Shown one piece after another: positions 7,781 to 64,000 of a DNA stretch of 64,000 nucleotides; position 1 is the stretch's first letter, and every line of letters starts with the position of its first letter. Below the pieces are notes generated by a model. It did no database searches, was not told the origin of the DNA, and was given only the letters and a program-made list of their open reading frames with translations. Source of the stretch: Diphasiastrum complanatum (lineage: Eukaryota > Streptophyta > Lycopodiopsida > Lycopodiales > Lycopodiaceae); assembly GCA_029204225.1 (NCBI GenBank), contig CM055097.1, positions 186,001-250,000 of the forward strand, read 5' to 3'. Made by a program: the position numbers and the translations under genes.

Positions 7781-8650
7781 TTCTATGTCCTTAACTGAAT
7801 ATGGCCATAACAGAGGCGCCTCTGGTTCTGTCATCTTAAAGGGTTCTTCACAATGATGCAATTGGGTACTAACCTCAGTACATTGATGTGATCTATGCAA
7901 ATGATTAGGTAATTCCATTGATGGCACAAGTATAGAATGAACTTCTGCTGCAACTCTGCCATTTTCCAAGGCTTTTTCCTCTTGTAAGTCCTTGAGTGTA
8001 ACAGAACTAACTGTTGATCTTGGTTTGACTTTAATAATGTTCAATGGAGCAGTTACTAATGGTGGTTTTGGTTTCGTTGGACAATCTTTGTAGTGATGTC
8101 CATATTCGCATTCTCGACAAAAAAGATTAAATTTGTCTTTATTTGGACATTCTACAATTCTATGATTTTCTCCGCATCCAAAGCAACCAAGTGGTGCTCT
8201 AGCCCATTGTCTAGACTGTTGTGGATGCATAGCAGCATAGATAGCATATTGCTCTAGAGGTCTAGTGTCTTGTTCTGTATTATAATTCCAAGGCTCGTGA
8301 CTACTTGAGGCTTCTGGGTCCTTCAAATTTGCATGAGGAGCTTGTTGTATTGGAGGAGCAGGTAAAACTAACGGTTCAGAAAATCCAAGGCCATGGACCT
8401 TACCATCTGGTACTTTCCATCTAGGACTTTCTTGATAACCATACTTAGAATATCATTGTTTGATAAATCGAGAATTAAACGAACAAAAAGTATTCTTTTG
8501 TCCGTTTGAATTGCACAAATGACAATAGGTATCCACCATACGTCTCTTCATTGTTGGCCATTCGTTCATGGTGTGATTTCTGACATAGATTGCACAACAA
8601 ACATTTTCTCTGCTAGGAAACATTTTGTTGGATTATTCTCCTTCTTACTA
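7778..8650 (-). pseudogene. Gypsy gag with zinc knuckle
   Basis: The minus frame 8326-7778 contains CFGCGENHRIVECPNKDKF followed by LFCRECEYGHHYKDCP, two CCHC-type knuckles typical of gag nucleocapsid. Further gag sequence extends to about 8,650 with stops (MKRRMVDTYCHLCNSNGQ is a Cys-containing piece). It is truncated where plus-strand copia DNA begins, so the N-terminal capsid part is missing. Confidence 0.65.
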
Positions 8651-11587: not shown

Positions 11588-11677
11588 GTGTGCCATGATG
11601 ACAATCTTCGATTTCTGACACCTCTTGTACGAGAGCATTGCTATTGCTCGCTGAACGGATCGTATGTCTGAGCACAT
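11588..11677 (+). ncRNA. Candidate box C/D snoRNA 2
   Basis: Box C ATGATGA at 11595-11601, a possible D' CTGA at 11615-11618, and box D CTGA at 11668-11671. The ends pair as tgtgc (11589-11593) with gcaca (11672-11676). The bases before box D, gaacggatcgtatgt, would be the guide; the target is not assigned. It lies 185 nt after candidate 1 on the same strand and downstream of the same promoter, as expected for a polycistronic plant snoRNA cluster. Confidence 0.6.
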
Positions 11678-29916: not shown

Positions 29917-30722
29917 ATTTTACCGTATATTCGGAGGAATGTGAGCTATTCTTATCTCGTCTTCTCGAAAAAATTCTATGTTCATGCATGCTAAATTGCG
30001 ATCAACTTGGCATCATCTACAGCAGCGTTCAGTTTTTAAGATAATATACCTCTGAATTAATCGTTTTGGCACGGCTACAATTTTGGTGAGAATCGTGATG
30101 TTCATAGATTCGATAATGGCGGTAATGAACGCTATTCGTCGGTGAGACAATATATTGAGAACTAGCCAGAATATCATAGCAGATTAAGCTATGGTGTTAT
30201 GATATGTCGCACCTCTGGAGATTGCTGCACGAAAAAAAGGGAGCAGATGCCCCATTGCGGATGATGATAGTGCCTTGCGACTTGCTTTCAAATTCCGCAG
30301 GATAAATCATAGATAGTGTTGTTTTGAATTGCTTTCGGTGCTTTAAATTTCACTTATCGATCTGCACGTGACACCTTTGGCACGACAAATCTTTCCTTGA
30401 CACCGAGTAAATATAAAAGTTCGAACGATGTTGTTTCTGAACCTGATTTTGACGAGCATTACCAATGAACTAGAATTCACACCGAAAGATTGGTGAGCTT
30501 CTCATTATATAGTGATCCTTTACGGGTGCGATAAATTTTGAGAAGCTAATGTTTCAGAATGGACTTTGTCTTCTTTGATTTGTGAAGTTATGATATCAAA
30601 TTCATGTATACGATTTGGAATGGCAAATAGAACGACAACTTCCCCGTGTATTTGGTATATTCACTTGCATGCCCAATGACCATACGGCCTCAAACATTTT
30701 GCGTTCATCAAAGACTTGACAG

Positions 30723-32442
30723 ATGTACTCTGTTCATATGTGGCTACTTCTGGTAGCAGCAGGCTCTGGATATTTGGTAAGGTGTTGGCAAAGAGTTCAA
30801 CGTGCTAAGTCCTCTGATTGTGGAGCACATGTTAGTGATGACAAATTCCGAGAATTATCTAGCGATATACCTTGCCCTTTTCAATCAGAATCAAGTCAGT
30901 GCTTGTCTTCTACAGAGTCTGAAACTGTTGAAAGAATTGGTCGATGTGATAATGAGTCTTTACATGGTGATGCGGCGATTGTTTATGAGATTGTTGCCGA
31001 ACGAAAACATAACTTGAGCAACAAAGATAAGGCGAGGAAGAAATATCATGATCATAACTCTTTCCTTCGTTGGTCTCTTGGAAAGAATTTAAGATATTCG
31101 GGTGGAAATTTCAAACTAGCATGGAGAGGGAAAAACGGGGGGCAAAATTGCGACAAGGATTTCCAAAAGGACAATAGAGAGAAGGGATGGAAAGCCCTTA
31201 GACAAACAACAGAAAGGATTCAAAATGTCAGCAAGGAGCCTTCAATATCAGCAAATACTCCACTTTCAAGTGATTTTTTGAATGGAGGCAACCAAGGAGA
31301 GTTTCGATCATGTGCAAGTCTACAAGCTTCAAACATTAAACTTTTGAAAATTTCGGATGTTTCTGGGAGCAAATGTTTCAAAGAGACTTCGGAGACTGAA
31401 AGCCACGAGAAGTACGTTAAAGATAGTCCAAGTCAGATTTTTACTATTGAAAGAAACCTATCATCACAGACAGCTGTGACAAGTGCTGACGATCAGAATG
31501 AGGAGGTGTTCTTATGCAGCATTGCTTTGCCAAATGCAAGGGCTGTTAACGAAATTAAAGGTATGACAAAAGATGAGCATCATTTACGTTTTTCTGCAAA
31601 AAGTGAGCCTTTGGATCGTTTGTCAAGTACACTTACTCAAGAAATATTGCATGCTACAAAAGAAAGCGAGTTGATAGTGGCTGGAGAAGATCGACTGCAA
31701 CTCCCATTTTTTCCTGCCAGAAGTAGCACGAATGTGACTACACTGAACTTTCAGAAAGATATCTATGGTGATGGCTTCAACTGGAAGAAAAGGAAAAGTC
31801 TGTCCCAGATAAATGTGGACATTTTACGAAGAGAGGCTTTTGCAATGGAATCCAATATGGGATACTTCCCTAAATTCAAATGTTTGGAAGGAATAGGCTC
31901 TTTTCCGTTTCATTCAGAATCTATCAGGATGGATAGTTGTAGAAAAAGTTCTTCAAGAAATGCAAGAAGTTTTAGCAAATCTTCCAGATCTCAACAGTTT
32001 ATTCGTAGAAGTTCTTCTCCGTGCATATCTTCGAAGCCCTTCTCGTCCTCAGAAAAAATCTGCAGAGCACATAGCTCTGTTCAATTATTTCACCATAAAG
32101 CGAGGATACCTGGTTTTTTGAATTTACATGCTGACCCAGAGCATCAATGTCAATACGCATATTGTGATGAGCTCAGAAACACGATCCGTGTCAGTAATGC
32201 AGTGTTTACGAGCATGAACAATATTTTGGGAAGTGTTTGGCCAAGGAACGGATCAACGATTACAGATTTAGCTGGAAATTTGAGACCTTTTTGTCAACCC
32301 TGCAGCTCCTCTGCAGCAAATGTAGAATTGCAGAGAGTCGGCACACACAGTTTTCTAGTTACGAACAAGAAGAGGAAGATATCTAAGGGTATTGCAAGGT
32401 CTGCGTCCAGGGATTTTCAAGAAGTCGAAGATAATGTTGAAG
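30723..32442 (+). CDS. POLAR-like exon 1
   Basis: 573 codons plus one base. It opens with a hydrophobic N-terminus ([10 protein letters not shown] after it resembles the family start). The rest is Ser-rich, low in recognisable domains and probably disordered, with basic patches such as [17 protein letters not shown] and [15 protein letters not shown]. The donor is GAAG|GTACCT at 32443. The frame stays open for 35 bp into the intron, to the TAG at 32475. The sequence cttgacag directly before the ATG could be a 3' splice site of a leader intron. Confidence 0.7.
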
Positions 32443-32631
32443 GTACCTTGCTAACTCGATCCATCATTCCATCCTAGAGGCTATCTGTGATTCATCATTA
32501 CCCCTTGGAAAGAATTGTTCTTTCTTGTTTTGTTTATAAACTTATTGTCTAAATATATTGCTATGATGTTAATGTGCAAGGGCTACTGTAATGAACAGAA
32601 TCAAAAAAAGAAGACGTGTCATAGATTCTTC

Positions 32632-38600: not shown

Positions 38601-41600
38601 CAAACTAAAATGATAGTATATGCTGTAAGGAGCATTCTACCATCATTAATCTTGGAAATTGCTCCTCCAATTGGGTCGATTGGATCACGAATGCTTGCTG
38701 TCCATGAATTTCCAGCAAGAAGAACTTTACATTAGCAAGAATACAAAGCAATAAATCAGATCCAACAAGACACCAATCTAGGATAGCATTACACTAGCAT
38801 TAATTAGCAAGAGATTATATCACAAAAACAAATCACAAGAGCATATGTGAGAAGAAATCTCTCTCTCTCTCTCTCTCTCTCATAGTGCGCCCATCTAGGA
38901 GGAGGAGGAGGAGGTATCATTTACAGATTTGATGAAGTGCAATGGTGCCTTTCACCCTGTCATGATGAATTTGAATTCCAAGGCAAAATTTTGCCTCTCC
39001 AAGGTCCGAAACATCAAAGATAGAGCCAATTAACTTTTTACAATGATTGTTGAAAGGAGTAGAATTTCCTATCAACAATGAATCATCAACATAGACCGTC
39101 AACAATACATAATACTCATTCACCCTTTTGAAATAAACATTACCATTAGGAATGAATGGTATGAACCCCAATGCTTTGAGGACTTGATCTATCTTCTTAT
39201 TCCATTGCCTAGCGGATTGCTTTAAACCATATATCTTTTTAAAAGTAAGCAAACCCAACTAGGATGATGTCTACTCACATAGCCTGATGGCTGCTTCATA
39301 AAAATAGTTTCATCAAGTGTGCCATATAAATATGCTATTTTCTCATCTATTTGATGCATTTCCAGATCATAATAAGCGGCCAAAGCAACTAACAAACGTA
39401 TGCTAGCTTGCTTTACAACGGGAGAAAAGGTATCAAAATAGTCAACTCCAAACTTTTGAGAATAACCCTTTGCTACAAGGCGAGCCTTGAAGCGGGTAAT
39501 ATCACCTTCGGGTGAAAATTTAAGTTTGTAGAGCCATTTGCAAGCTATGGCCTTTCTTCCTGGTGGTAAAGGCTGCAACTTCCAAACTTGGTGTCGATAC
39601 ATGGACTCCATCTCTTCATCCATAGCTTTGCGCCATTGATCTTGTTTGTTACTTTTCATTGCTTCTTCATAAGTTGATGGAGCTTTCACAAAATATCCAA
39701 ATTCTCTTTGGAAGTGAACTGGCTCTCGTCTTCCTCTCCTTGGCCGTGATGTAGCAGCTTCCTCATCTTCAAATTCTTCTTCTTCCTCACCTGCATGTTC
39801 AATAATTTCTTCTTCTTCTTCTTCATCAAGAAGAGGTTCATGCATAGTTGGAACAATAGGCTGCCCTTTTGGAGTAGCATGAAACAGTTTGGAAACATCA
39901 TATCCTAGAACATTTGCTTCTTCCTTTTTCTGGAATATAAGATCATCTATGAACTTTGATTCATCAAAGCATACATCTCTAGAAAAATGAAATTTCTTTG
40001 TAGTTGGAATGTAAATCTTATAATAATTTGAGATTGCATCATATCCAACTAGAATTCCTGGCATAGCAGTATTGTCTAGCTTGTTGCGTTTAACTTTAGG
40101 AACAAATAAATATGCTAGACATCCAAAAATTCTAACATGTGTTAACTTTTTCCTAGTCCAACATTCATAAGGAGTTTTATCCTTATCTAGAGATTGTAAA
40201 GCGCGATTCTGCAAGTAATTGGCAGTATTAACTGCTTCCGCCCAAAATTTAGCAGGTAACTTTGCATGAATCATCATGCAGCTTGCTACCTCAACAAGAG
40301 TTCGATTCCGCCATTCTGCAACACCATTGTGCTGAGGGGTGTACACAGCCGTAAACTGATGTAGAATGTTATTGCTGGTACAAAACTCCTGAAATTCTCC
40401 AGAAATATATTCACCACCACTATCTGAACGTAGTTGTCTAACTCTCTTTGAAGTCTTAGAGTGCACAAAACTGAGAAATTCTTTAAATTTCGAAAGAACG
40501 TCACTTTTATTAGCAATAAAATAGACCATTGCTAATAAATGCCAATAGAGTTAACATGCAAAGGTCCACAAACATTTGTATGAACTAATTCAAGAAGTTC
40601 TTTAGATCTATGGCCCTCTTTATTGAATGGAGAGCGAGACATCTTGCCCAGCATGCAAGAGTCACATGGATGATATGAAGTGGGAATATTGATGTTAAAA
40701 TCAACCCCTTCAAACAACTTTTTCTTTGCTGCATCTAAAATGCTGCGCATACTCATGTGATAGAGATATGCCATAATGCATGCATTTTGTCTTCGACGGC
40801 TGAAACTTCGTCACATGCAATAAGAACTTTTGCATGATACAGGTTCTCCCTCAAGCCTGTTGTAAGCTATCTTCCACTTCTTATGTCCATTAGCCTGCAA
40901 TCATTGTCAAGAAACAAAACTTTGATGCCCACATCTTTCATGCGGGCCACTAACAATAAGTCCTTTTGCATGGTTGGTACATGCAATACATTTCGAAGAA
41001 CTTTAGAACCTTCAATTGTGAGTACTCAAGGCTTCCTATTCCTGAAACATCATGTTGACTACCATCTCCTAAAATGACATATCTCTAAGTGTAACTAGGA
41101 GAACTAGACAACATAGCTCTATAAGAGATGATATGAGCAGTAGCTCCAGAATCTATCACAGCTTCGGAAGTATTATCAGTCGAATTAAAACAATCTTCTA
41201 CACAAACAAAAGCTGCAGCTAGAGTGTTTTCCTCTTTGCTTGAGTTAGAAGAAAGTTGTTCCTCTTGACAAACATTGGCTTTACTATTGTTAGGCCTAGA
41301 ATAGCATTTAAAAGATGAATGACCAGTTTTGCCACAATGTCTACAAGCTACTCTAGGATTAGCCCAACATTTATCAAGAGTATGTCCTGGCTTTTTACAA
41401 TAGTTGCAAAAAGATTTCTTTGACTTAGGCTCAGATGATTCCACTTTGGAATCTTTATTGTTTGGATCTTGCACGCTTGTAGCTTGAAACTGGTTCTCGC
41501 GTCCTTTTGCCTTGCCCTTTCCTTTCTTCGCATATAAAGCTTTAGCTCCTCCTTGAGAAAGTGAACTGCCTTGCCGCATGAGATACTCCTCTCGAAGGCT

Positions 41601-42701
41601 TTGAATGACATCTTCAAAGGATTTACCTGTAAGAACAGGTCACATGTAGATGTAGGAGGGTGGTAGTGCTCGCAACAGGTACGTAAGTTTCTCCTCCTTG
41701 GGAGTTATTCTACCTGCACTTTGTAGAGCACTAAACAAAGATTGTAACTTGAAAAGAAAAGTATCACAATCTGAAATTCCATCCCACTTTAACTAGTAAG
41801 TTGCTCAAACAAATATAAGATTTGAGTTTGTGATTTGGACTCAAATCTTTGAGCAAGTTCATCCCACATCTCCTTTGATGTAGCAGAATTGGCAACAGTG
41901 AGAAAGATATCTTCTGAAACGGTTTGGGAAATAATTACTTTAGCTTTCGAATCTGCATGCAACTAGGCATTAAGATCTTTTAAATCTTCTTCATAAGCTG
42001 CTGTATTTATTACATCAGGTACATGCGGTTTGGGAATGGTCCCATCAACATAAGGCCACAGCTTCTCAGCTTGCAGGATTAGTCGAGTCTTTGATCTCCA
42101 TGCAAGATAGTTGGATCCATCTAGGATTGTTGTCCTTGCCTGAAAAGTAGAAGTAGAAGCCATAACTCTGATACCACTGTTATAGAATTGAAAATGGATT
42201 GCTAAATTGAGGTTTACCAAATACTAAAATGAAGGAGATTCCACCTAAAATAGTTGTCCATACAATTCCATTAGAGGAGAATGCTAAGCCTATTCGGGCT
42301 AAGCCTACCCGGTTTATCGTGAACGAATTGATGAAGATATTAAGAAACTCCTAGATGTTGGTTTCATTTATGAAGTCTAGCACACAGATTGGGTATCACT
42401 CATCATAGTGGTTCCCAAAAAAAATGGCAAGTTTCGTATCTGTGTTGATCTCAAAAACCTTAACGCGGTTACTATAAAAGACCATTTTCCATTGCCCTTA
42501 ACGACACAAACACTTGAGGAAATGGCAGAAGCTGAAGCTTTCAGCTTCTTAGATGGTTTTAGTGGCTATTTTCTAGTTTAAATAGTCCCAGAGGATAAAC
42601 ACAAGATGACTTTTGCCACGGAAAATGGCGTTTATGCTTATAACATAATGCCTTTTGGCTTATGGACCACAAAAACAAATCACAAGAGCATATGTGAGAA
42701 G

Positions 42702-48700: not shown

Positions 48701-51668
48701 CGATGGTAGACCAGGATCGCGGGAAGTAAATCGCGAGACAAGAAAGATCGTGCCACGTGAGAAAAGTGCCTCGTGACTAGGAAACAACCATTAGAAAGCT
48801 ACCGCACAACAGATCAAGGTAGCAAGTTAAAAGGGTTTGTGTGAGATTGTGGGAAATCAAGGCAGTTTTATGAAGAAATCTACGTTATTTCAAAAAGCAA
48901 AAGGAAAATGAATCACTTTTGTAGAGATTTTAGTTCTACCTTTTCAAAATCATCGATGAAGTACAAAATCCACTATCGATTGATTAAACTAGTGGTGATA
49001 CAATCTGAAATGAAAATCAATCTGGTAGACAACGAGATCATACAACAAGAGAGGCAAGTCAGGCCGGATCATCATTTTGAAAGTGATTGGAGACATCTTA
49101 TTAACAAACAGCCAGACTTTTGATTTTGCTAATAAACTTTGTAGAAGATGACCAACGTGCAAACTCTAGAGCAACGTCATAAATGGTGAGCCAACGATCT
49201 ACCCTAGGTGATCGTGACAGGAAAGGGAAACACTTTGATGCATTTACTGAAAGAAAACTTATAAGAACATTGATGAAAAGGAAATATACGTCCTCGAGGG
49301 AAAGTATGAACAAATCTAGGATTTACAAGAGCGGAGCTTGCATTAAAACTAAAATCACAACATGATCTTACTACAAGCAAAAAGAAAAAGCTATGTTGCT
49401 GTCACTAGAACTTTGCCAATGGACTGCAGCAAATTAGAAAAGTGAACCGTTCGCAGGTTAGCTAGTACAGGGAGGTGAGAAGAAGCCAACCCAACCACTT
49501 TTACCCTTTAGTACATCATTGGAGGGTTGATTTTGTTGATGTGTCATGGTGCAAGGATGAATATTGTGAACCTTATAGGGTAAACAGAATGTCAAGAGAT
49601 TATAGCAAGCAATGGATTAACAACAGTTGTTTGTCAATACTACAAGTAGCTTGCAGATTGATTTTTCAAGTGTGCTCACAGGCTTTTCTATGTGCTTGTT
49701 CAGCGAGAGCTACATTGCATGGGTGGCGCAAGGTCTGCAGAGTTGTCCAATGGGCATATAAAAGTGGTCAATGGCGAAACAGGAACAGCTTCTTCTCAAG
49801 TAGCCCAGAGGTATCAAGCTGTCTCTCCAAGAGAACTAGACAGGCGTCTACGGATAGTGCTACAAACAAGGCAAGAAGAACGTATATCAGAGCTTGAAGC
49901 AGAAGTTACTGCATTGAAACAGGAGCTAAATGCAAAAGAGCAAGAGTTTCAGTCATACAAAGATCGTGTTTGCCAACTGACACTTTTATCCACGGCATCC
50001 AATTTAAGCAGAGAGCCAGGTTGATTGCTTTGCTGTCTTTCTTCTTTCAATTAGTGCTTGACATTTTCATACAGATCTATTGTAGTGGATCTGGTTTGTG
50101 CTTTTCCTGATGTATAGTTATTTGGCGGTCTGTCTTATGTGCAGATTTTGTACCTCATCTTTATTTTGCCCAACTGCCTGCCTTTTTCAGTGTAGATTTT
50201 TAATCGAGCAGTCAAAAGTAAAAGATGAAAATTTTAGCATTCAAGCTAGACCTAATATCTCGTTGCACATGCTAACACAAAGCTAATTTATCTTTGAACA
50301 TTCTGCACAGAAGTCAAAAGAACAAAAAATGATCAGCTTTTCTTATGAAGGATATGTTAATTGTCTTATCAGACAATTTCCTTTTATTTTGCAGATTCCA
50401 ATGAAATTATTGTCTGTGAAAAGAAGACTATGGATACACAGCTTAACAGGCCACCTTTCAGCAATCATTTTCACGGAAATATGGCTTTAGGTGTTTTGTC
50501 TGATGAAAGCCAGCTTGTCCATCTCCAGCAAAAGTCCTTGAGCGGGCAGGATTCTATGGAGGACAAAATTAGTAAACATATGAGAATAGCTTTTGGAAAA
50601 AGAGGTGAAGAATTGACCCAAGTGCTTCCAGGAACATTCCAAGGAGAAGACAGCCGTCTTCGCATACATTCTGGAAATCCAGGTAGTTCTATGTCTCTCA
50701 TTCCTGACTCATTGAGTTCTAATGCTGATGAAAGCTATTCTGAAACTGTGGTATCATCTGAGATATGTGTGGGTTATGCAGCAAATGACATCAGAACTGT
50801 CTGTCACTCAAGGTTACAAGAATCAGTAGTTGTTAACATGAAGGCTAATTCAGAAGAAGCAACATCATCTACGTATTGTGTGTTGGACAACAGCAGTAAT
50901 TATTCAAGCAAGTGTGGTTATTCGACTGTTATTTCTGATTCCATCTGTGGTGATAGCCTGCGGGATACAGCCATTTTTCGTGTCTCAGAACAAACTGAAG
51001 TTGACAAGTGCGAGCGACAAGAAACTTACATTCAGATGATGGGAGTGAAAGATAATAGCACAGAGTGGAGATATCTGGAAACATCCAAGAAGAAAATGGT
51101 ATCTGAAACTGACAAGCTTTGTGTACCTATATCTGACATTTATGATAGGAATGATAGGTTCACCATTGTTCGAAAGGGCTCTAAAGCCCTAATTCACCCT
51201 GAAAACTCCCAAGTATACACTGATCACAGTGAAAATGAGAGGGCTACATGCGTTCCTGCAGTATGTGTTGAGGAAGAGTTTTATCAGACAAGAAGAAAAA
51301 ACGGCAAAGCAGATGCACCGGCAAGCACTCCTGTTGGAAGCAGCCATAGAAGTAAGCAGGTTATGTTTGAAGTTTGTAAAGAACTTGGAAAAGAAGATCT
51401 GCCCTTGTACAGTTTGGAAGGTGAGACGGAAAGTTTTCCTGTGATCAGAGAATTTGGGAATTTTCTTGAACCTCTTTCTCAATCTATATGCCATTCAAAA
51501 AGTCATGCATTTGGGGAAGACAACTCAGCTTCAGATTCTGAAGAAAGCCTAGGTGAAGAACTTATCAAACAAATCGTTCAAAAAACAAGAAGCGGTTCTT
51601 CACTTCTGAAAGATGCTCAAATGATTCTCAATATGCTAGAGAATGATGACAGATGTCAATACTACTGA
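30723..51668 (+). CDS. POLAR-like protein gene (four exons, about 21 kb)
   Basis: Predicted exons are 30723-32442, 46361-46821, about 49743-50019 and 50395-51668, giving about 1,243 residues. Splice phases agree (1/1, 0/0, 1/1) and the whole stays open. Family features: N-terminal hydrophobic [14 protein letters not shown], a second hydrophobic segment [15 protein letters not shown] opening exon 2, coiled coil [17 protein letters not shown], the hallmark [11 protein letters not shown] plus [13 protein letters not shown] in exon 3, and a C-terminal [20 protein letters not shown]. In Arabidopsis, POLAR is a polarised cortical scaffold for GSK3-like kinases in stomatal-lineage asymmetric division. 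The relatives are less studied, so this role is inferred by family only. The true start may be the second Met (30738). Exon 3's 5' edge is the least certain part. Intron 1 is 13.9 kb of mostly transposon DNA. Confidence 0.7.
32634..32693. repeat. (GA)30 microsatellite in intron 1
   Basis: Starts 191 bp after the exon 1 donor. About 60 bp of uninterrupted AG. Confidence 0.95.
33076..33345 (-). pseudogene. LINE-type RT C-terminal zinc-finger fragment (copy A)
   Basis: The minus frame reads [14 protein letters not shown] then TRYNCLF and DQRCVTLI. The pattern (EHF.F.CP after an upstream Cys pair) is the zf-RVT-like tail found after reverse transcriptase in non-LTR elements. It is paralogous to the fragment at 51861, with about half the residues shared by eye. 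Isolated fragment in intron 1. Confidence 0.5.
33440..33900 (+). pseudogene. Gypsy RNase H-connection and integrase scraps
   Basis: The frame at 33447 reads [20 protein letters not shown] and [13 protein letters not shown], the RT-RNase H connection of gypsy pol. The frame at 33795 reads [18 protein letters not shown] and AHFIPTK, the start of the integrase core with the first catalytic Asp. The DNA between (RNase H and zinc finger) is missing, so these are deletion remnants. Confidence 0.7.
34010..35120. other. Intron 1 DNA, nothing recognised
   Basis: No coding similarity or structural repeat seen. Every frame has many stops. Confidence 0.4.
35128..35330. repeat. Diverged 101-bp tandem repeat
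   Basis: Two units share gcatctta, gtcaatcggat, ctcaatttacaaaataggg, aaaagtcac/t and gcattcataact in the same order, period about 101. Weaker flanking copies may extend it on both sides. Confidence 0.7.
35534..35913 (+). repeat. 5' LTR of gypsy element (380 bp)
   Basis: Starts TGTTACGAG and ends CTGTTACTAACA, giving inverted TGTTA/TAACA ends. One base later comes the PBS. The 3' LTR is not in the window in recognisable form. Confidence 0.6.
35915..35929 (+). promoter_or_regulatory. Gypsy primer-binding site (initiator tRNA-Met)
   Basis: TGGTATCAAAGCAGG is close to the complement of the initiator tRNA-Met 3' end (usual TGGTATCAGAGC), one base after the LTR. Confidence 0.75.
36764..37400 (+). 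pseudogene. Gypsy gag
   Basis: Contains [20 protein letters not shown] (capsid start), [13 protein letters not shown] (the usual A..WW.....), then a frame switch at about 37,180 to [37 protein letters not shown] and a stop, then [13 protein letters not shown]. The zinc knuckle is missing. At 37,430 the gag frame runs straight into [20 protein letters not shown], which belongs to the RT N-terminus, so protease is gone. Confidence 0.7.
37440..38170 (+). pseudogene. Gypsy reverse transcriptase
   Basis: Fragments: [48 protein letters not shown], then an open frame from 37882: [32 protein letters not shown] (active site FLDD) and [12 protein letters not shown]. Multiple stops between 37560 and 37870. 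RNase H and integrase are absent. Confidence 0.8.
38210..38930 (-). repeat. Left (3') LTR of the copia element
   Basis: Starts tgttatagaattgaaaatgg as the right LTR does, and ends with a (CT)11 tract, catagtgcgcccat, a GGA repeat and tatcattta, all shared with 42668-42785. Contains a 31-bp tandem (acatgcaatcaacatgcaag at 38315 and 38346) and a run of gcatgc words. The right boundary is approximate. Confidence 0.65.
39222..40529 (-). pseudogene. Copia integrase and reverse transcriptase (435-codon open frame)
   Basis: Integrase: [20 protein letters not shown] (second Asp), [20 protein letters not shown] (catalytic Glu region) and [15 protein letters not shown]. After an acidic linker ([17 protein letters not shown]) RT begins: [45 protein letters not shown] and [21 protein letters not shown] frameshift near 39,250 moves RT to 39258-38917: [19 protein letters not shown] and [15 protein letters not shown] (YVDD intact), then [11 protein letters not shown]. 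Open apart from the shift. RNase H absent. Confidence 0.85.
40532..40774 (-). pseudogene. Copia GAG-pre-integrase and integrase start
   Basis: [20 protein letters not shown] (zinc-binding CxxC and GK motif) then [19 protein letters not shown], the first catalytic Asp region in which the usual H-S/T-D is changed to H-T-N, so the first Asp is lost. A stop separates it from the integrase frame downstream. Confidence 0.75.
41085..42220 (-). pseudogene. Copia gag and protease
   Basis: Gag begins at 42160 ([19 protein letters not shown], then [18 protein letters not shown]). It is interrupted between 41960 and 41620 by stops and resumes at 41579 with two zinc knuckles ([14 protein letters not shown] and [14 protein letters not shown]) and the protease motif [12 protein letters not shown]. 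Order and spacing are normal for copia. Confidence 0.8.
42166..42176 (-). promoter_or_regulatory. Copia primer-binding site (minus strand)
   Basis: Read on the minus strand, TGGTATCAGAG lies next to the LTR edge at 42178 and matches the complement of initiator tRNA-Met. Confidence 0.75.
42178..42790. repeat. Right LTR of copia element, chimeric with gypsy RT
   Basis: 42178-42224 matches the left LTR start and 42666-42785 matches its end, including a longer CT tract (42705-42750). Between them, where the left LTR has about 550 bp of its own, the right one has about 440 bp of gypsy reverse transcriptase on the plus strand. Confidence 0.7.
42225..42665 (+). pseudogene. Gypsy RT fragment inside copia LTR
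   Basis: In plus-strand frames: [80 protein letters not shown] and [20 protein letters not shown]. This is the N-terminal half of gypsy RT up to the MPFGL motif. It is a different family from the RT at 37.4-38.2 kb. One internal stop or more. Confidence 0.8.
43147..43166. repeat. Run of 20 G
   Basis: An uninterrupted homopolymer in an otherwise ordinary gypsy-derived frame (WGGGGGG). Likely slippage-grown, and its length in the assembly may be wrong. Confidence 0.85.
43170..43695 (+). pseudogene. Gypsy integrase zinc-binding domain fragment
   Basis: The frame at 43460 reads [20 protein letters not shown] and [19 protein letters not shown], the H2C2 integrase N-terminal domain with His, His, Cys, Cys present. 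After a stop the next codons give [19 protein letters not shown], the start of the catalytic core. The upstream frame at 43000-43320 may be the preceding RNase H tail ([17 protein letters not shown]). Confidence 0.75.
44632..44760. repeat. 64-bp tandem duplication
   Basis: Two copies with about 10 differences share atgccac, gtgaccaagtactcatgga, and aaacgc...ggtcca (period 64). Lies in a stretch (43,700-44,830) with no other feature except a perfect palindrome gttgaccggtcaac at 44063. Confidence 0.8.
44830..45690 (-). pseudogene. Gypsy integrase fragment (minus strand)
   Basis: The minus strand reads [17 protein letters not shown] (first Asp, about 45,650), then [20 protein letters not shown] with DTRFIVNFW (second Asp), then a stop and [18 protein letters not shown], then the C-terminal [20 protein letters not shown] and [15 protein letters not shown]. 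Nearly colinear integrase with a few stops. Orientation is opposite to the other gypsy pieces in this intron. Confidence 0.75.
46361..46821 (+). CDS. POLAR-like exon 2
   Basis: The acceptor is tttttttatag|ttcctg, and phase 1 matches exon 1 (the joined codon gives Val). It encodes a hydrophobic segment [17 protein letters not shown] near its start, then acidic sequence, then [17 protein letters not shown], the conserved coiled-coil helix of the family. The donor is CAAG|GTAAAA at 46822, phase 0. Confidence 0.7.
48084..48177. repeat. Inverted repeat, 14-bp perfect arms
   Basis: ggtttcacatggaa at 48084-48097 and its exact reverse complement at 48164-48177, spacer 66 bp. The related phrase ccatgtgaaat recurs near 48,422. 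It may be the core of a degraded MITE spanning about 48,070-48,440. Confidence 0.6.
48545..48560 (+). promoter_or_regulatory. LTR-retroelement primer-binding site remnant
   Basis: TGGTATCAAAGCAAGG resembles the gypsy PBS at 35915. The preceding sequence (ttggctgggtggt...ctataaca) resembles the end of that LTR, suggesting a related LTR ending just upstream. The following 0.9 kb has no coding similarity. Confidence 0.5.
49743..50019 (+). CDS. POLAR-like exon 3
   Basis: Holds [15 protein letters not shown], then the strongest family block [13 protein letters not shown] and [20 protein letters not shown]. The end is CCAG|GTTGAT at 50020, phase 1, which matches exon 4. The 5' edge is uncertain: ctgcagag|ttg at 49743 gives the required phase 0, whereas the better acceptor cacag at 49681 would need an unseen microexon. 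The frame is open from upstream of 49692. Confidence 0.6.
50395..51668 (+). CDS. POLAR-like exon 4 (C-terminus)
   Basis: The acceptor is ccttttattttgcag|attcc, and the joined codon (g + at) gives Asp. The 424-residue C-terminal part is mostly Ser/Glu-rich and unstructured. It ends with [18 protein letters not shown] and [18 protein letters not shown], matching the conserved C-terminal motif of the family (IVEKT..GS......AQ). Stop TGA at 51666-51668. Confidence 0.7.
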
Positions 51669-54353: not shown

Positions 54354-55270
54354 TCAAAGATCTATAGATGATATGTTTATCCCTAATAGGAAAAACTCAA
54401 CTAGGCAACAATGAGATCTAACATCAAAGAAAGAATTAACGGTTGAAAGTATAGATGCTAGATCTAAAGAGAATCTAGGTGCTATACTAGATGTCATCAA
54501 TCGATTTGGATCTGATAGTCTACTGCTTGATGTATCAAACTGCTCAACATCCTCATCCTTGTACATTTTAGATTCATCAAAGATAACGTCATGACTAGTA
54601 TACATTTTCCTCTCCAAAGGATCAAAGCATATATAGCCCTTCACATGATCATCATAGCCTAACAAGATATACTTCAATGCTTTTACATCAAGCTCATTCC
54701 TATATTCTCTAGGAATGTGCAGAAAGGCCTTACATCCAAAAATCCACAAATGGATCAATTTCGCTTCTTCTTTGTAAATGCCTCTTCAGGTGTTATCTTT
54801 GGCACTACAATGGTAGGACTCCTATTCTAGAGACATACTCTAGTACTACAGTCTGAAAGCTTCTGACCAAAAGCCCTTTGGTAGTTTCATCTCAGCAAGC
54901 ATAGATCTAGCGCTCTCCGCAATCGTATGACGATGCTTGCGCTCAGCTACACCATTGAGTTATGGAGTGTAATCTTGCATAGATTGTCTCTTGATTCCAC
55001 AATGGTCACAAAAGTATTTAAACTCATTGGATTTATATTCACATCCACTGTCAGATCTTAAGATCTTGATCTTCCTATCTTGATTCCACAATGGTCACAA
55101 AAGTCTTTATACTCATTGGACTTATACTCACATCCACCATCAGATCTTAGGATCTTGATCTTCCTACCTATTTGGTTTTCGACCATTGCCTTGAAGCTCT
55201 TAAAAGTAGCAAAAAAGAAAGAGCCTATCTTGTGCACCCCAGCTTTTGCTTTTCTCAATAGTAAAATCAA
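54354..55270 (-). pseudogene. Copia integrase remnant with 89-bp internal duplication
   Basis: The frame 55270-55058 reads FKSFKAMVENQIGRKIKILR then SDGGCEYKSNEYKDFCDHCG (second Asp region). An 89-bp tandem duplication (54990-55168, about 8 differences) repeats KIKILRSDG...DHCGIK. Downstream, 54758-54354 reads MIHLWIFGCKAFLHIPRE, KYILLGYDDHVKGYICFDP and HDVIFDESKM, the integrase C-terminal region. RT is absent. Confidence 0.75.
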
Positions 55271-56914: not shown

Positions 56915-57067
56915 ATTTATATTATCGACTCTTCGAGTAGGCCATCATGCATCTGGCTGCTTCCATTAGGGTCATGTTCTTTTGTTCAGCAACACCATTG
57001 TGCTGTAGTGTGTAGGCTGTAGTTCTTCTGTGAATGAAATCAGTGAAGCAATTCGAGATGTATTTGT
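56915..57067 (-). pseudogene. Outer copia integrase, 3' part (left of insertion)
   Basis: The minus frame reads SLISFTEELQPTHYSTMVLL-like sequence with the conserved tail QHNGVAEQKNMTLMEAARCM (Glu region of the integrase core), with frameshifts. It is the continuation of the integrase interrupted at 62551. The frame then degenerates at 56,915. Confidence 0.7.
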
Positions 57068-57721
57068 TGTGAAGGATTTCAGATCATTCAAGATCCAATC
57101 CACGTCTCAAATCTTTGGTTAAAATAAGGAGCAAACCAACAATCCTGCCAATGTAGAAAAATCAGCATCTACATACAAAATGAGATGCAAACTCTAAGAG
57201 ATATTGATCAAACATGAACCAAAACATAAAATATGTTTGCTGTCCATACAATTATAGTACCCTACTGTATTTCACACGTGTGGAACCGAAAATAGCAATA
57301 AATGATCATTCTACACACAAGATTGCAAGATAACACCAAGATAGTGCACCAATGAGTAGTAGAACCCAAAGAGAACCATGTATAATGATGAAATGAGAGA
57401 GAGAAGAGAGAAGATGTGTCTCTCCACGACTTACATCCTTTTATAGAGTTTCCAAACCCTATTTGGCCACTTGGCTTTCCCTCCAAAATGCAAACCCTAT
57501 TATTTTTTGGTCTAGATTCAAAGTACCCAAAGTTCAAATTTAAATCTCTCTCAAACTCAACTACCAACTTTCCTACACTTTCCAAAAGTGTTTATTGAAT
57601 GTATTTTAAACTAATATAACTTCAAAAAGTTTATCTCTAAGTCTAAAATGAGTTTTGGCCTCTTATTGACAATTTACCAAAATGTGACTAAACTAGACTA
57701 AACTAGTTGAAATCTCTCACA
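57068..57721 (-). repeat. Left LTR (3' LTR) of inner copia element
   Basis: 654 bp, TG...CA ends, matches 61897-62550 throughout without an obvious indel. Confidence 0.9.
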
Positions 57722-60042
57722 CTCCCTCTTTCAACTAGTTTTGGCATAGTTTTGACAATAGAACTTTGATCCAACTTTAGAATGATCTCCATCCTAAGTA
57801 TAGATCTTCTTTCTAAGGTTCTAAAGTATCTTTCATAATTGATATAGAGAATAGTGTCCAAATTGGATGCTTCACTATTTCTTACATCAATTTTACACAT
57901 CAAGATATAACTAGAACATGAAGAACCAAATAGAATGTGAATGAAATGATTCCTCCATGTTTCAAACTCTGGAAAATTACAGCAACCAAACAATAAATGT
58001 GAGTGATGACCATTTGCTTGCTTGTCTCCTCCAACTTTGTCCTTTCTTGATATGTCTCCACCATAAAACTCCATGAATGAGCCTCCATCTCCATCTTGCC
58101 ACAAGAAACCATCAAACCTTGGAAATCCATGAATAGGTGAGTACATTAATGATGAAAATCCAGCGCCACATGACTCCATAAACCAAGTAGGTTTCACTAG
58201 TCCATCTTCAAGATCTACTTGACACAAGAAAATGACCATGAATTCACCAAAAATTGACAATCTCCAAGTATTGGCACCAAGTGGCTCAACACTTGAGAAC
58301 TTAATCATGGATGAGTGATATAATGAGCCTCCAATAGCTTCATTTCCATCAGCAAAACCAGTCAAGAATGCTAGTACAACTCCAACAATAAGATATTGCA
58401 AGACAATGTAGCTAGTTTGTCCATATCTTGACAATTTGCACACATTCACATGAAATAGCTCAAACATGAGATAGAACAAGTAAAGTAAACTTGAACAACA
58501 CTTCCTTGCTGCTCCTTTGACCTTACTTGAGTCTTCAATAAGCTGCAAAAACAGATCCATAACATCTTTGCCAATTACCTCTCCTTTGATGCTCTTGACT
58601 AGCTCCAAATTGCCACCTTTCCTTTTGTGTTGTTGAAGCCCTTTGAGACCAACCTCTTGATCTTCCTCTTGACCATCAAAGTCATTGAACAGACTTTGTT
58701 TTCCAGATCCATTACTTGCTTTTCTAGTATGAAAACCATGAGAACCAATATCCACTTGCATAGCATCATCTACACAAGAAAATTCTCCAAAACATGTGAG
58801 TAAAGCAAAGTGTGTCGCTTCCACTTGCTTACCTTTCTCTTGATCATCAAAGATATCAAAGATATGAATATCTTCAGACTTGAACCTCTGAAAATACTCC
58901 CTCTCAAACATATGATGTAGATCCAACAAGAGCTCATCAATGCTTGATCTCGAATTTCCACAAAGGTTAGTGAAAACAATGTCGCCAATGTCATCATCAT
59001 AAATCAAAAGATAGATTCCAAACTTTCCATCCAACATGAAGTAGAGTAGGTGAAGATGAGTATCAAACCTAATAAATCCAGCCCTCTTGAGTCCATAACA
59101 AACCTCAATAATCTCACCAATGAGATCTCCCTTGCCTTGAAGAAATTGCCTCTTGATTTGTTCCATGTAGTCTTCTCCAACCAACTTTTTGCCATCTCGA
59201 TCATGAATGATCAATTCACAATCATAGAATCCTTTGAGTTGATGAGGAGATGTGAGATCCATGCCTTGGATCTTCCCAAGAACCAATCTTCCATTGCTCT
59301 TCCCTTCATAAGACTCCCTCTTAATAATTGCATCATAAGAAGTAGAAACCTCAAAAACAGTAGAAGCCACGAAAAAAATGATTAGTACCTTCAACATAAG
59401 GATGATTGAAGTACTCTCTTTTTTCAAACAAGAACTTCTACTCAATGTTTTAGGTAATGACTCATATGATAATGATTCTTCCTCACTATCATTCACAATG
59501 ACATCATTCAAAGTACATCCTACTTTGAACTCTTCACATACTTCTCTTCTTCTTGACTTGTGACTATCTCCCTCACTAAGTCTCTCGATAGAACCATTTG
59601 ATCTACTCTCTTTATGAAGACATGTGACTCCACTTGCTGGAAAAATGACTTTCTTGGAATCATAACAAAAGAATGTAGAAGAACCATCTCCTTCATGCAT
59701 GCACCTAGCAACATCCTTTTCCATATGATCAAAGAAATCATTAGCAACAATCTTTTCCAAGGAAGAACCTTCACCTCCATTGATGAAGTTAGCTCTTTCC
59801 TTACCTTTTGCATGCTTGCACTTGCCATGAAGAACCATTGAAACACCATCATTATCCTCAAGACTAGCCAAGTTAGCACAAAGATGAACATCTCTAAGAA
59901 GCATATTAGATCTTGACCTAGATCTAGCATAAGGAAGCTTGTTAGACTTTGCATAAGATCCACCAATATTATTGATGCTAAAAGGTAACTTTGGAAAGTT
60001 GAGACCAATCTCCTTTTCCATTCCATCCTTTTTGTTAGCCAT
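57703..60042 (-). CDS. 779-codon ORF replacing copia integrase/RT
   Basis: Longest open frame in the window. The first residues (MANKKDGMEKEIGLN, preceded by LFKLDAFV) continue the copia GAG-pre-integrase linker after a -1 frame change relative to protease. The middle keeps a distorted echo of RT: DYMEQIKRQFLQGKGDLI, EVCYGLKRAGFIRFDTHLHL, YFMLDGKFGIYLLIYDDD and SSIDELLLDLHHMFE, where YVDD would be expected but IYDDD is found. Three hydrophobic segments could span membranes: IILMLKVLIIFFVASTVFEV, SSLLYLFYLMFELF and YIVLQYLIVGVVLAFLTGF. The C-terminal half is otherwise unlike any family I know. It runs through the PPT into the LTR (SVRDFN). Open over 2.3 kb in AT-rich DNA, so probably translated until recently. 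Confidence 0.6.
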   Translation of the reverse strand: MANKKDGMEKEIGLNFPKLPFSINNIGGSYAKSNKLPYARSRSRSNMLLRDVHLCANLASLEDNDGVSMVLHGKCKHAKGKERANFINGGEGSSLEKIVANDFFDHMEKDVARCMHEGDGSSTFFCYDSKKVIFPASGVTCLHKESRSNGSIERLSEGDSHKSRRREVCEEFKVGCTLNDVIVNDSEEESLSYESLPKTLSRSSCLKKESTSIILMLKVLIIFFVASTVFEVSTSYDAIIKRESYEGKSNGRLVLGKIQGMDLTSPHQLKGFYDCELIIHDRDGKKLVGEDYMEQIKRQFLQGKGDLIGEIIEVCYGLKRAGFIRFDTHLHLLYFMLDGKFGIYLLIYDDDIGDIVFTNLCGNSRSSIDELLLDLHHMFEREYFQRFKSEDIHIFDIFDDQEKGKQVEATHFALLTCFGEFSCVDDAMQVDIGSHGFHTRKASNGSGKQSLFNDFDGQEEDQEVGLKGLQQHKRKGGNLELVKSIKGEVIGKDVMDLFLQLIEDSSKVKGAARKCCSSLLYLFYLMFELFHVNVCKLSRYGQTSYIVLQYLIVGVVLAFLTGFADGNEAIGGSLYHSSMIKFSSVEPLGANTWRLSIFGEFMVIFLCQVDLEDGLVKPTWFMESCGAGFSSLMYSPIHGFPRFDGFLWQDGDGGSFMEFYGGDISRKDKVGGDKQANGHHSHLLFGCCNFPEFETWRNHFIHILFGSSCSSYILMCKIDVRNSEASNLDTILYINYERYFRTLERRSILRMEIILKLDQSSIVKTMPKLVERGSVRDFN
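57722..57733 (-). promoter_or_regulatory. Polypurine tract
   Basis: On the minus strand TGAAAGAGGGAG lies directly before the 3' LTR, the expected plus-strand primer site of reverse transcription. Confidence 0.8.
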
Positions 60043-60569
60043 AACAAAAGCATCAAGCTTGAAAAGTTACCTTGTCTATTGCCCCTAGCAACCAATATTT
60101 TTTCCCTTGTAATGAAACAAACATCACCACCAAACTTTACCATGTATCCTTTCTCTATCATTTGACCAACACTTAGCAAATTCTTTGAAAGTGAAGGAAT
60201 GTAAAGAACACCATCAAGTCTTGCTTTCCTATTAGTAGAGAGACAAATAGGAATTGAACCAAGACCTTCGATCACACACTCACCACCATTGGCCATGTGA
60301 ATTGCTTTCTTGGCTCCATCATAAGTGACCAAAGAAGTAAAGAACTCCTTGTGACTAGTCATGTGTGAGCTAGCTCCACTATCAATCCACCATGAATCTT
60401 TGTCACCTTCACTTGATATTGGACTTGATGAACACATCAAAAGAGAACCACCACCACCTAGACCCTCATCATTAGTAGTAATGTTGATTTGCTTGCTACC
60501 TTTATCTCTTTGCTTCTTCAAACATTCATTAGCAAAATGCCCTTTGATTCCACAATAAAAGAATTTCAA
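59520..60569 (-). CDS. Copia nucleocapsid and protease frame
   Basis: Begins with FFYCGIKGHFANEC, a zinc knuckle whose first Cys is replaced by Phe, then SWWIDSGASSHMTSHKEF (protease active site D-S-G), NGGECVIEGLGSIP, LDGVLYIPSLSKNLLSVGQM and KYMV-like sequence up to about 60,060. Beyond that the frame stays open another 540 bp but overlaps the 779-codon frame and is probably meaningless there. The real product is about 170 residues. Confidence 0.7.
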   Translation of the reverse strand: MKFFYCGIKGHFANECLKKQRDKGSKQINITTNDEGLGGGGSLLMCSSSPISSEGDKDSWWIDSGASSHMTSHKEFFTSLVTYDGAKKAIHMANGGECVIEGLGSIPICLSTNRKARLDGVLYIPSLSKNLLSVGQMIEKGYMVKFGGDVCFITREKILVARGNRQGNFSSLMLLLWLTKRMEWKRRLVSTFQSYLLASIILVDLMQSLTSFLMLDLGQDLICFLEMFIFVLTWLVLRIMMVFQWFFMASASMQKVRKELTSSMEVKVLPWKRLLLMISLIIWKRMLLGACMKEMVLLHSFVMIPRKSFFQQVESHVFIKRVDQMVLSRDLVREIVTSQEEEKYVKSSK

Positions 60570-61295
60570 CTTAGACTTATCTTTCTTTTTGCCAAAAGAA
60601 GAAGTCTCACCTTGATCTTGCCCTTTAGACTACTTGCCTTTGCCTTTGCCCTTGAACTTGCCTTTGATGAACATAGCATCCTCTTCATAATGAGATGTGC
60701 GACGTAGATCCACCTCCTCTTGATTGAAGCCTATAATCCTCATTCACCAAGATCTCTTGCAAATCCACAATACTTGGCAAAGTCTTTTGAATAGCAAAAC
60801 TTTGAACAAGATTAGCATGATCATCCAACAAGCCATTAAGTATAACTTGAACAAGTTCTACCTCCTTAATGCTTTCATCAATACATGTTAACTAATCATT
60901 GAATGCTTTAACCCTCAAAACAAAAGCATGAGTACTCTCTTCCTTCTTTTGCAAACTTTGAAAGATTTGCCACCTAAGAGTAAGCACTCTTAATGTAGAC
61001 TTGGATTCATAAAGCTTCTTCAAAGCTTCCCAAGCCTCCAAAGATGATGTGCACTTACCAACTTCCTTGAGAAGTTCATTGGTAACATTCATCTTAATCA
61101 TGTCTCTACTTTCTTTTCTCTCTTGTCGTACCTCACTTGATCTTGAGGTGCTTGAGGTCTCTCCTCCACACCTGCAACAATCTCCATCAACTCATTCATC
61201 TCCAATAAGGACTCCATCCTCACCTTCCAAGTAGAATAGTTGATTGAGGTAAGCCTATCATTGCTCTCCAACATAAATCCACCACTTGTAGCCAT
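60570..61295 (-). pseudogene. Copia gag (UBN2-type), frameshifted
   Basis: Starts MATSGGFMLESNDRL then NYSTWKVRMESLLEMNELME. A frameshift at about 61,100 leads to IKMNVTNELLKEVGKCTSSL with EAWEALKKLYESKS and LRWQIFQSLQKKEE. After a stop it continues as ELVQVILNGLLDDHANLVQS and LVNEDYR. Normal copia gag order and length, with at least two disabling changes. Confidence 0.75.
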
Positions 61296-61879
61296 GTTGA
61301 AGTCACCTGATCATCTCTTTCAAGCTGTTCCAATGCACAAAGCACTCTCTTGAATGTCAAAAAATGAACTCAAGAAGAAATCACAAAGATATGGAACCTG
61401 TCAAATCTCTTCTAGCACTTCTAACTAGAAAATCAACACATAAAATAGTGAAATCTTGATCAACCTATGATCTATCCTCAATATAATGATTCTTGCCACT
61501 TCCTAAGATTGAAACACACTCAAATGAAGTTCAGTAACCTCACAAACTAGAGATCCAATCAAAATTAGGGTTTTGACAAAATCACAAAAAATTGAATATC
61601 TCAAATTCTACATGCAATTTCTGGAAACTTGGTATATCTTCTTGTAGACTCCAATGAGACCATCCTAATGCACCAAAAATCATCTAATTCCAGTAAGCCA
61701 AGTGTGAAATCGGAATTGATCAAGTATATAACCCTATATTGAGTTTTGACCTACAAAAGATCAATTCTACACATGCAAAAATGCTGATTTTTGAGTAGAG
61801 ATCAATCTAGCATGTCTAGCATTGGTAACTCCTCCAAAATCCTTGCTAAATATGGCTGATCCTTTCATAACCTGAAACA

Positions 61880-61896
61880 CAATAGCTTTGATACCA
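61880..61896 (-). promoter_or_regulatory. Primer-binding site
   Basis: On the minus strand TGGTATCAAAGCTATTG lies directly inside the 5' LTR with no spacer. Initiator tRNA-Met type. Confidence 0.8.
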
Positions 61897-62550
61897 TGTG
61901 AAGGATTTCAGATCATTCAAGATCCAATCCAAGTCCCAAATCTTTGGTTACAATAAGGAGCAAACCAACAATCCTGCCAATGTAGAAAAATCAGCATCTA
62001 CATACAAAATGAGATGCAAACTCTAAGAGATATTGATCAAACATGAACCAAAACATAAAATATGTTTGCTGTCCATACAATTACAGTACCCTACTGTATT
62101 TCACACTTGTGGAACCGAAAATAGCAATAAATGATCATTCTACACACAAGATTGCAAGATAACACCAAGATAGTGCACCAATGAGTAGTAGAACCCAAAG
62201 AGAACCATGTATAATGATGAAATGAGAGAGAGAAGAGAGAATATGTGTCTCTCCATGACTTACATCCTTTTATAGAGTTTCCAAACCCTATTTGGCCACT
62301 TGGCTTTCCCTCCAAAATGCAAACCCTACTATTTTTGGGTCTAGATTTAATGTACCCAAAGTTCAAATTTGAATCTCTCTCAAACTCAACTACCAACTTT
62401 CCCACACTTTCCAAAAGTGTTTATTGAATGTATTTTAAACTAATATAACTTCAAAAAGTTTATCTCTAAGTCTAAAATGAGTTTTGGCCTCTTATTGACA
62501 ATCTACCAAAATGTGACTAAACTAGACTAAACTAGTTGAAATCTCTCACA
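61897..62550 (-). repeat. Right LTR (5' LTR) of inner copia element
   Basis: 654 bp, same ends as the left copy, directly next to the PBS on its inner side. Confidence 0.9.
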
Positions 62551-64000
62551 TTTGCCACCTCGATCTGTTCTAATCTGCCTCACTTTGTTGTCTGTGCATC
62601 TTTCTACCCAATTCACATATTTTGTGAATTTATCAAGTGCTTCAGATTTATTCTGATTTACACTCTGGCAAATTTGCTATAATCATCAATGAAGGTTATG
62701 TGATACTTTGAACCTCCTATTGAGATCACGTTGAATGGTCCGCAGATGTCAGAGTGCACTAGCTCCAGAATCTTTGTCGTTCAGTAGGAGTCTTTGATGA
62801 ATGGTGTGCGTGACATCTTGCCCTTCAAACATGCATCACAGGTGGTCGAACTGGTTGCATTCGAGATGCTGACCTCTGTTATCACTCCATGATGGCTTGT
62901 CTGGTAAAGTGCCATTGAGTTTATGTGGCAGAGTCTTCTGTGCCACAGAGTGTCTGGCGAGTCGTCATGAGTCTAATGCACCTAATCTGCAGGTAGGCGT
63001 ACCTTTAGATGATATAGGTTCCCTTTCCTTCTGCCTTGAGCGAGGGGAGTACTGGTACTGGCATCAATCACGTTGCATGTTTCGTTAGAAAACGTCACAC
63101 GCATCCCTACATCTGCTATTCTTGCTATAGAGAGCAAGTCTTATTGCAGAGTAGGCACGAACAGAACGTCTTTGAGTCGTCTATCTCTGCCATTGGTGTT
63201 GAGCCATAGTGAACCCATACCATTCACTTGATGTCTAGATCCATCTCCAAGAACTATGAATCTTGAGGGATCGCACTTCTGAGATCAGACATGATTTGTC
63301 TTGATGTCACAAAGTGTGAGGTGGCTCCTGAATCAAGGATCACCTCATGTGTGTCAGATGTTGATGTTGCACACACGTCTTCACAGATATAGGTAGTCGA
63401 ACAGTTTCTGTTTGTTCTTTCTTCACCCATTTTTGAGCTCTCGGGCTCCTCGACATAGGATGAACTATTGTTGCTCTCCTGTCTGTTCTGTGCTGACTTG
63501 TTTCTTGGGTTCTGGCAGCAATCCATGGCTACATGACCCTTCTTGTGGCAATGGATACACTCAATCTTGGGATTGAGCCAACAGGTATCTACTATATGCT
63601 CGTCTCTTCTACATCTCACACAAGTCTTCTTGTCTGCACCTTGTTGTTTTGACCTCCCTTTGGTCTTCCAGTTGCTTTTGCTTGTTCCCTCTGCTTGCTG
63701 ATCACGATCCTGCCTCTGATTGGACTCTCTCTTAGGCTTAAATTGTTTCTTTGATTTTTCTTTGTTGCCGTAAAGGGCCTGGTCAGATCCATCTTTGTGA
63801 TCAAGATGTTCTCTGGCCTGACTTCCTCTCCAATCTCGACAATTGCCTTTTCGAGGTTCATGGCGGGATCTTTCGCGAGGAAGGTCCTTGTCATCTAGAA
63901 TGATATGGGTAACGCTCTCAACAGGTACGTGAGCTGCCTCTTAGTTGACACAACGTTCTCTGCTCCAGAGTTATGTAGGGACAGAAGAAGATCCTTCATC
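62551..64000 (-). mobile_element. Outer Ty1/copia element, 5' part (runs off the window)
   Basis: From the right edge on the minus strand: gag end (63999-63616; ENILITKMDLTRPF is in another frame), zinc knuckle IECIHCHKKGHVAMDCCQNP, protease HEVILDSGATSHFVTSRQIM (63619-63254), GAG-pre-integrase, and integrase start (CDACLKGKMSRTPFIKDSY, LVHSDICGPFNV with the first Asp, about 62,850-62,740) up to the insertion point in the core. A few stops. The 5' LTR would lie beyond 64,000. Confidence 0.8.

Follow-up and report, generated by a model that had tools for sequence, protein, structure and literature searches.

A copia-type Gag-protease retrotransposon family of Diphasiastrum complanatum with a long open frame in the place of pol

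In a copia-type long terminal repeat (LTR) retrotransposon of Diphasiastrum complanatum, one open frame of 779 codons takes the place of integrase, reverse transcriptase (RT) and RNase H. The element lies on the minus strand at positions 57068-62550 of the window, the 64,000-nt stretch of contig CM055097.1 (GCA_029204225.1) analysed here. What is this frame, called X below, and how could elements that carry it multiply? Our answer is that they probably form a copia family of the semi-autonomous Gag-protease kind, in which the pol tail has decayed yet stayed open and which another element moves with its RT and integrase. Confidence in this answer is limited because copies chosen by their X cannot by themselves show the whole population to be without RT and integrase.

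Architecture of the element and its copies

The window element comprises the following features, including the primer-binding site (PBS), the polypurine tract (PPT) and the target-site duplication (TSD).

57063-57067, no strand: TSD copy adjoining the 3' LTR, 4/5 bases matching
57068-57721, minus: 3' LTR, 640/654 identical to the 5' LTR
57703-60066, minus: X, open frame replacing integrase/RT/RNase H, 787 codons (ATG form 57703-60042, 779 codons)
57722-57732, minus: PPT, preceding the 3' LTR
58348-58416, minus: X hydrophobic segment 2
58903-59238, minus: putative decayed copia RT segment in X, residues 277-388
59347-59412, minus: X hydrophobic segment 1
60067-61295, minus: gag-protease coding region, Retrotran_gag_2 E 1.3e-08, broken in the window copy
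60144-60392, minus: Pol_BBD domain, from the DSGAS motif onward, PF22936 E 1.1e-24
60522-60560, minus: gag CCHC zinc knuckle, E 0.012, below the Pfam cut-off
61885-61896, minus: PBS, TGGTATCAAAGC
61897-62550, minus: 5' LTR, 640/654 identical to the 3' LTR
62551-62555, no strand: TSD copy adjoining the 5' LTR, 4/5 bases matching

The element has TG..CA LTR ends, a PBS, a PPT and a short TSD, as expected of copia. Its LTRs, 654 bp each, agree at 640 positions and the TSD reads GCAAA/ACAAA in element orientation, matching the original prediction, made from the letters of the window, of LTRs about 2% apart with PBS, PPT and a nearly matched TSD. We take the PBS to be of the initiator-methionine tRNA type; TGGTATCAGAG stands at this site in all 20 copies fetched from the host genome. 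Retrotran_gag_2 and Pol_BBD both score above the Pfam cut-off, in keeping with a copia-type gag and a protease, and the DSGAS motif at the start of Pol_BBD is presumably a protease-type motif. Where a complete copia element has integrase before RT-RNase H, we found an RT-like segment only, with no integrase or RNase H signal. The element is classed as a non-autonomous copia derivative and not as a complete copia element. Frames in both of its flanks look by eye like copia integrase pieces; it therefore appears to be inserted inside another, decayed copia.

The 779-codon open reading frame (ORF) is present in the window as predicted, at 57703-60042, and the stop-to-stop frame (57703-60066) has 787 codons. 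Its length is beyond chance, as had also been proposed: Markov-generated sequences of matching composition, in three sets of 200, had longest frames of 170, 182 and 204 codons. In intact copies, however, it does not stand alone as a gene. In L046 and L050, two of the 20 fetched copies, gag, protease and X share a single frame of 1203 codons, 785 of them in X, and X is therefore the C-terminal part of a Gag-protease-X protein, in agreement with the suggestion that the ORF was linked to gag. The window copy gives the impression of a separate 779-codon gene because its upstream gag-protease is broken by two in-frame stops plus frame-shifting indels. In X the 19-residue mean exceeds 2 in two hydrophobic segments (L046 residues 219-240 and 551-573), where the original prediction had counted three; the remaining hydrophobic stretches peak at about 1.4-1.5. 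X occupies the position expected of pol, in frame with the protease; an envelope-like or membrane accessory ORF beside a functional pol was not found, X itself sitting in pol's place.

Altogether 40 of 6553 candidate places were scored when the host genome (1.74 Gb) was searched with the ORF DNA, and all of them span essentially the whole query. Besides the window and its duplicate contig they comprise 38 places, which are 96-97% identical to the query. The family has a high copy number: exact 26-mers from the LTR start, the protease region, the first part of X and the last part of X occur 2514, 1154, 1270 and 1153 times, respectively, and the reversed control words gave zero matches. Twenty copies were fetched with flanks by similarity to X, so that the presence of X in them is expected. 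All 20 have the layout LTR-gag-protease-X-LTR, some with partial LTRs, and this agreement in layout does carry information. Three repeat an insertion site already counted, which leaves 17 independent sites. An exact 5-base TSD flanks 14 of the 20 copies (11 of the 17 sites), L038 and L039 have near matches, and in L040, L041, L043 and L047 a TSD is absent or cannot be judged.

Insertion was recent. The LTRs of near-full pairs differ at between 1/654 and 18/639 positions (9/267 in the partial pair of L043), and the mean corrected LTR distance is 0.019 over 17 elements, which include the window and exclude L033, L035, L036 and L043. With the window protein as query, 57 X matches were scored, 32 stop-free and 25 with stops. 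With L046 X as query, 20 of 57 scored places cluster at 99-100% identity, the next standing at 94%. X is stop-free in 19 of these 20 young places and the 1203-codon frame is uninterrupted in 18; two of the places are on small contigs and may be duplicates. The youngest copies are thus mostly intact, and an intact gag-protease frame, the mark of GAG-Pro elements, is present in L046, L050 and 18 of the 20 young places. The proposal that the family was amplified with its ORF open holds for this non-autonomous copia family. The alternative named with it, stops scattered through X across the family, holds in part: stops occur in 25 of the 57 scored places, and the youngest cluster is nearly free of them.

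Two arrangements of copies were also observed. A 100% match to the window ORF on a small contig (G000:C1911 47636-49999; 99% as protein) is probably an unplaced duplicate of the window region and was excluded from the selection counts, L001 and L002 being the window and this duplicate contig. L027 and L028 (G000:C15 26728094-26735296) are two element copies 4831 bases apart; the 3' flank of one opens with PBS-like sequence, and they seem to share an LTR in tandem.

The reverse-transcriptase signal in X and the origin of the frame

An echo of RT had been proposed for the ORF. The echo is supported at X residues 277-388, which align in order with RT residues 71-194 of L052, a copia RT of the same genome. 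With standard gap costs the z-score of this alignment is 7.5 and none of 1000 shuffles equals it; with cheaper gap settings z is 5.6, 3.7 and 5.1 (0, 1 and 0 of 1000 shuffles), and BLASTP gives E 6.5e-4. At the same place, a panel of 11 RT rows (10 distinct, one entered twice) gave two z-scores above 4 (L052 7.4, another 4.4), three rows of 2.5 to 3.3, two of which are identical sequences, and one of 1.9; the other five rows aligned there without conviction. When four near-identical RTs were combined into a profile, six of the seven X rows compared with it beat all 500 shuffles yet stayed under the inclusion threshold.

The segment looks decayed. The YVDD motif, which the original prediction held to be lost, has been replaced, though the Y-D-D-D of the window copy still literally fits Y-x-D-D; L046 and L051 have Y-D-G-D. 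The stretch that follows YGLK is absent. Integrase comparisons of X gave nothing, in line with the predicted loss of integrase signatures.

Other comparisons of X were negative. No Pfam family reached its curated cut-off, and the matches below it (I-HmuI_NUMOD-like, E 0.057 and 0.013; LDL lectin, E 0.15) were judged to be chance. PDB sequences gave no match, and among the viral contigs searched neither X nor the other copia element of the window had a relative. That second element (38900-41639, minus strand) has recognisable integrase and RT pieces and is frame-broken. Compared with X, it (442 residues) gave no RT signal; 15 of 500 shuffles equalled or exceeded its RT core, and the N-terminal part of its RT was negative. 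A match of hydrophobic segment 1 to an RT helix was considered and dropped as not significant (best 14/1000, in one of five sequences).

Codon usage was scored with a model trained on the family gag plus the RT and RNase H of another copia. The thirds of X gave 13.0, 7.1 and -3.0 bits per 100 codons, and gag, which belongs to the training data, gave 14.6; the first two thirds are gag-like in this measure, and no other forward frame scores better than X in any third. We read the middle of X as decayed RT, most probably, and the remainder as presumably decayed pol.

Selection on X, the autonomous partner and rival explanations

Selection was assessed over 21 independent insertions, in which changes common to at least two copies were sorted into replacement (N) and silent (S) and compared with the same base changes placed at random sites. 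The 21 were obtained from 28 pooled rows by dropping the duplicates L033, L035, L036, L030, L049 and L021 plus the tandem partner L028; L022, which inserted independently but is almost the same as L046 (5 differences in 3585), was filtered out of the 21. In X, 123N:38S were counted against 118.2:39.0 expected (ratio 1.07, p 0.79), and the identical changes read in two wrong frames gave ratios of 0.99 and 0.98. Replacement in X is neutral, with no sign of amino-acid constraint. By thirds the ratio is 0.70, 0.90 and 2.08, none significant (last third 46:8, p 0.063), and the branch to the young cluster has 19N:7S in X against 18.1:7.1. In gag-protease, 34N:20S against 37.9:12.6 (ratio 0.56, p 0.057) leans towards constraint but does not prove it; an earlier gag ratio of 0.34 from the first 700 bases is superseded, duplicated insertions having been counted separately. 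On the young-cluster branch, changes in X outnumber those in gag by 26 to 1 (32 to 5 at a looser cut-off), an excess that is probably a sampling effect because copies were chosen by similarity to the window X. For the same reason, indel counts in X look low.

The 21 insertions have 12 stop positions in gag-protease, none shared, and 13 in X, of which three are each common to two insertions. Stop-making changes in X number 18 against 28.5 expected (Poisson p 0.024). An earlier set of 24 copies that included duplicates gave 23 against 29.3, and 28 copies read in the window frame over the first 2088 bases gave 21 against 26.9 (singletons 13 against 12.4). A first list relative to the window placed a stop in 8 of 28 copies; codon-by-codon counting did not reproduce that stop, which was therefore a context artefact. 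Neutral drift of X since it was a functional RT should have left roughly 38 stops over its length, or about 5.5 in the RT-like segment alone; this rough estimate is derived from 26% identity with half of the change on this lineage, and the figure of 38 takes all of X as pol.

LTR spacing was surveyed on contig C1, with 100 of the 2514 LTR starts listed. Among these starts there are 19 non-tandem pairs spaced by 3.7-4.9 kb, a tandem run and four gaps of 16-19 kb; no spacing of 5-16 kb occurs. The main class of pairs measures 4.78-4.88 kb; seven of the 19 fall short of it, and L051, the one of the seven that was read, has a rearranged and shortened X. Of 49 protease sites in the surveyed stretch, 22 are linked to an LTR start at 0.8-2.6 kb and none near 4 kb, and 21 have neither an LTR start nor a last-third X word within 20 kb; two protease sites are 5.9 and 8.1 kb from a last-third X word. 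Across the whole of C1, 43 of the 66 protease sites are accompanied by an exact X word at the distance expected. Copies with normal integrase and RT, which would have made the window a one-off rearrangement, were not seen: none of the 19 listed pairs is of autonomous size, and the 20 fetched copies were selected by X. The tandem run (G000 contig C1 25522963-25535344) consists of five family LTR starts at four exact 3089-base spacings; each unit carries protease and first-third X words, and these are shortened elements.

Under the reading that we favour, the family would encode one Gag-protease-X polyprotein, of which Gag and protease would provide particles. X would be the remnant of a region for integrase, RT and RNase H that has lost its catalytic residues and undergone deletions and replacement, carried as an open passenger tail free of functional constraint, and an autonomous copia element would supply reverse transcription and integration in trans. 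RT-bearing copia sequences are plentiful in the genome (150 scored of 119351 candidates), which makes enzymes in trans plausible. That the element parasitises an autonomous copia, as first proposed, is likely by logic, given that no working RT or integrase is recognisable in it; the partner itself was not found.

Several results weigh against this reading. No autonomous sibling with these LTR ends was found among the LTR starts listed on C1, and 23 of the 66 C1 protease sites lack an exact X word at the distance where one is expected; there the word may be mutated or the neighbour different. The contrast between gag and X is no more than suggestive (Fisher p 0.075). As to the RT segment, one of 1000 shuffles reached the pairwise score at the cheapest gap extension tried, hhalign gave a probability of 12% (p 0.0024), and a broader RT profile was not significant, since 13 or more of 1000 shuffles ranked above X. 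X gave no signal with pieces of integrase and RNase H, so that the support for descent from pol extends to only about 112 of its 785 residues. In the last third the codon-usage score is negative, and reverse frames outscore X in the second and last thirds. Finally, intact copies have no stop at all, an openness for which the favoured reading does not account: constraint on X may have lasted until recently, or else selection acts against stops and nothing more.

These two possibilities lead to the first rivals. The original prediction ended on an accessory or membrane protein, and X could be such a protein, for example membrane-bound or tethered to Gag, giving the family an advantage. The 785 codons open in the youngest copies, the two strongly hydrophobic segments and the freedom from stops despite deep divergence from RT speak for this. 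However, replacement is neutral overall and on the young-cluster branch, the last third tends to an excess of replacements, three stops recur across independent insertions, copies with shortened X occur, and for X neither Pfam, at its cut-offs, nor the PDB sequences gave a match. We therefore regard an accessory function as quite unlikely and do not retain the prediction of a kept one. The second rival is selection against stops alone, with replacements neutral. If translation ended early, the long 3' untranslated tail that resulted might expose the RNA to nonsense-mediated decay, or the yield of Gag-protease might fall, so that X would be kept open with its sequence free; the family would have uncoupled an open frame from a protein, its pol-derived tail remaining translatable as the amino acids drift. 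The frame did stay open throughout the decay of RT, and stop-making changes fall short in the 21 insertions. The deficit is weaker in the other two sets, though, stop-bearing copies may have spread, as the stops shared by independent insertions indicate, and the copies were picked by similarity to the window X. We consider this account unlikely; if true, it would be a natural case of selection on nonsense alone across hundreds of codons.

A third possibility, that all of X or just its last third was captured from the host or a foreign source and is not decayed pol, appears very improbable. It draws on the confinement of RT similarity to about 112 residues and on a last third devoid of gag-like codon usage and of RNase H. 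Searches of Pfam at cut-off, PDB and viral contigs gave no match; of the host genome, the search covered the family itself and not the host genes. Moreover, copia pol runs from the protease to the PPT, and X does the same without a break.

Window context and comparison with known systems

The window holds several features beside the copia elements. At 11591-11674 lies a snoR1-family C/D-box small nucleolar RNA, which scores 50.4 bits with Rfam RF00345, whose cut-off is 49. An open frame at 7778-8452 (minus strand) encodes a CCHC-rich retroelement-like protein, and a second open frame occupies 6806-7501. An 89-base direct duplication, 92% identical, is found at 54989-55166 within apparent older copia remains. 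Open frames of 585 and 435 codons on the plus strand (30720-32477 and 50361-51668) are by eye unlike retroelement proteins and are perhaps host gene exons.

Non-autonomous LTR elements that retain only gag are known as TR-GAG. The Diphasiastrum complanatum family resembles them in being non-autonomous with gag kept, and differs in its protease region and long in-frame X tail. TR-GAG and BARE-2 are named as non-autonomous classes (PMC6696364). BARE-2 and non-autonomous RLC_Angela are also related elements that spread without a full protein set; BARE2 is described as defective in gag and intact in its other genes, the opposite of the present family, and in non-autonomous RLC_Angela, unlike here, the entire coding sequence has degenerated (PMC9744471). 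The closest parallel is with RLG_Sabrina_SA and RLG_WHAM of wheat, semi-autonomous gypsy GAG-Pro elements with high copy number and intact Gag-protease and without RT or integrase; the autonomous RLG_Wilma is proposed as the partner that moves them, and shorter Sabrina variants hold unrelated coding segments (PMC9744471). In contrast to these gypsy elements, the present family has a copia-type gag (Retrotran_gag_2), and a 785-codon open tail that includes an RT-like segment follows the protease in frame. A literature search, with most subscription journals outside its coverage, found no copia case with an in-frame open pol remnant.

If our reading is correct, the family would be a copia-type Gag-protease case, semi-autonomous elements of this kind having been described in wheat for gypsy elements. 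It would also be a graded intermediate, in which the protease is still fused in frame to a long tail and RT is barely recognisable. With more than 1000 protease and X sites and a very young cluster, it would offer a testable system for the loss of pol with gag kept, and for the question of selection that acts on stops alone.

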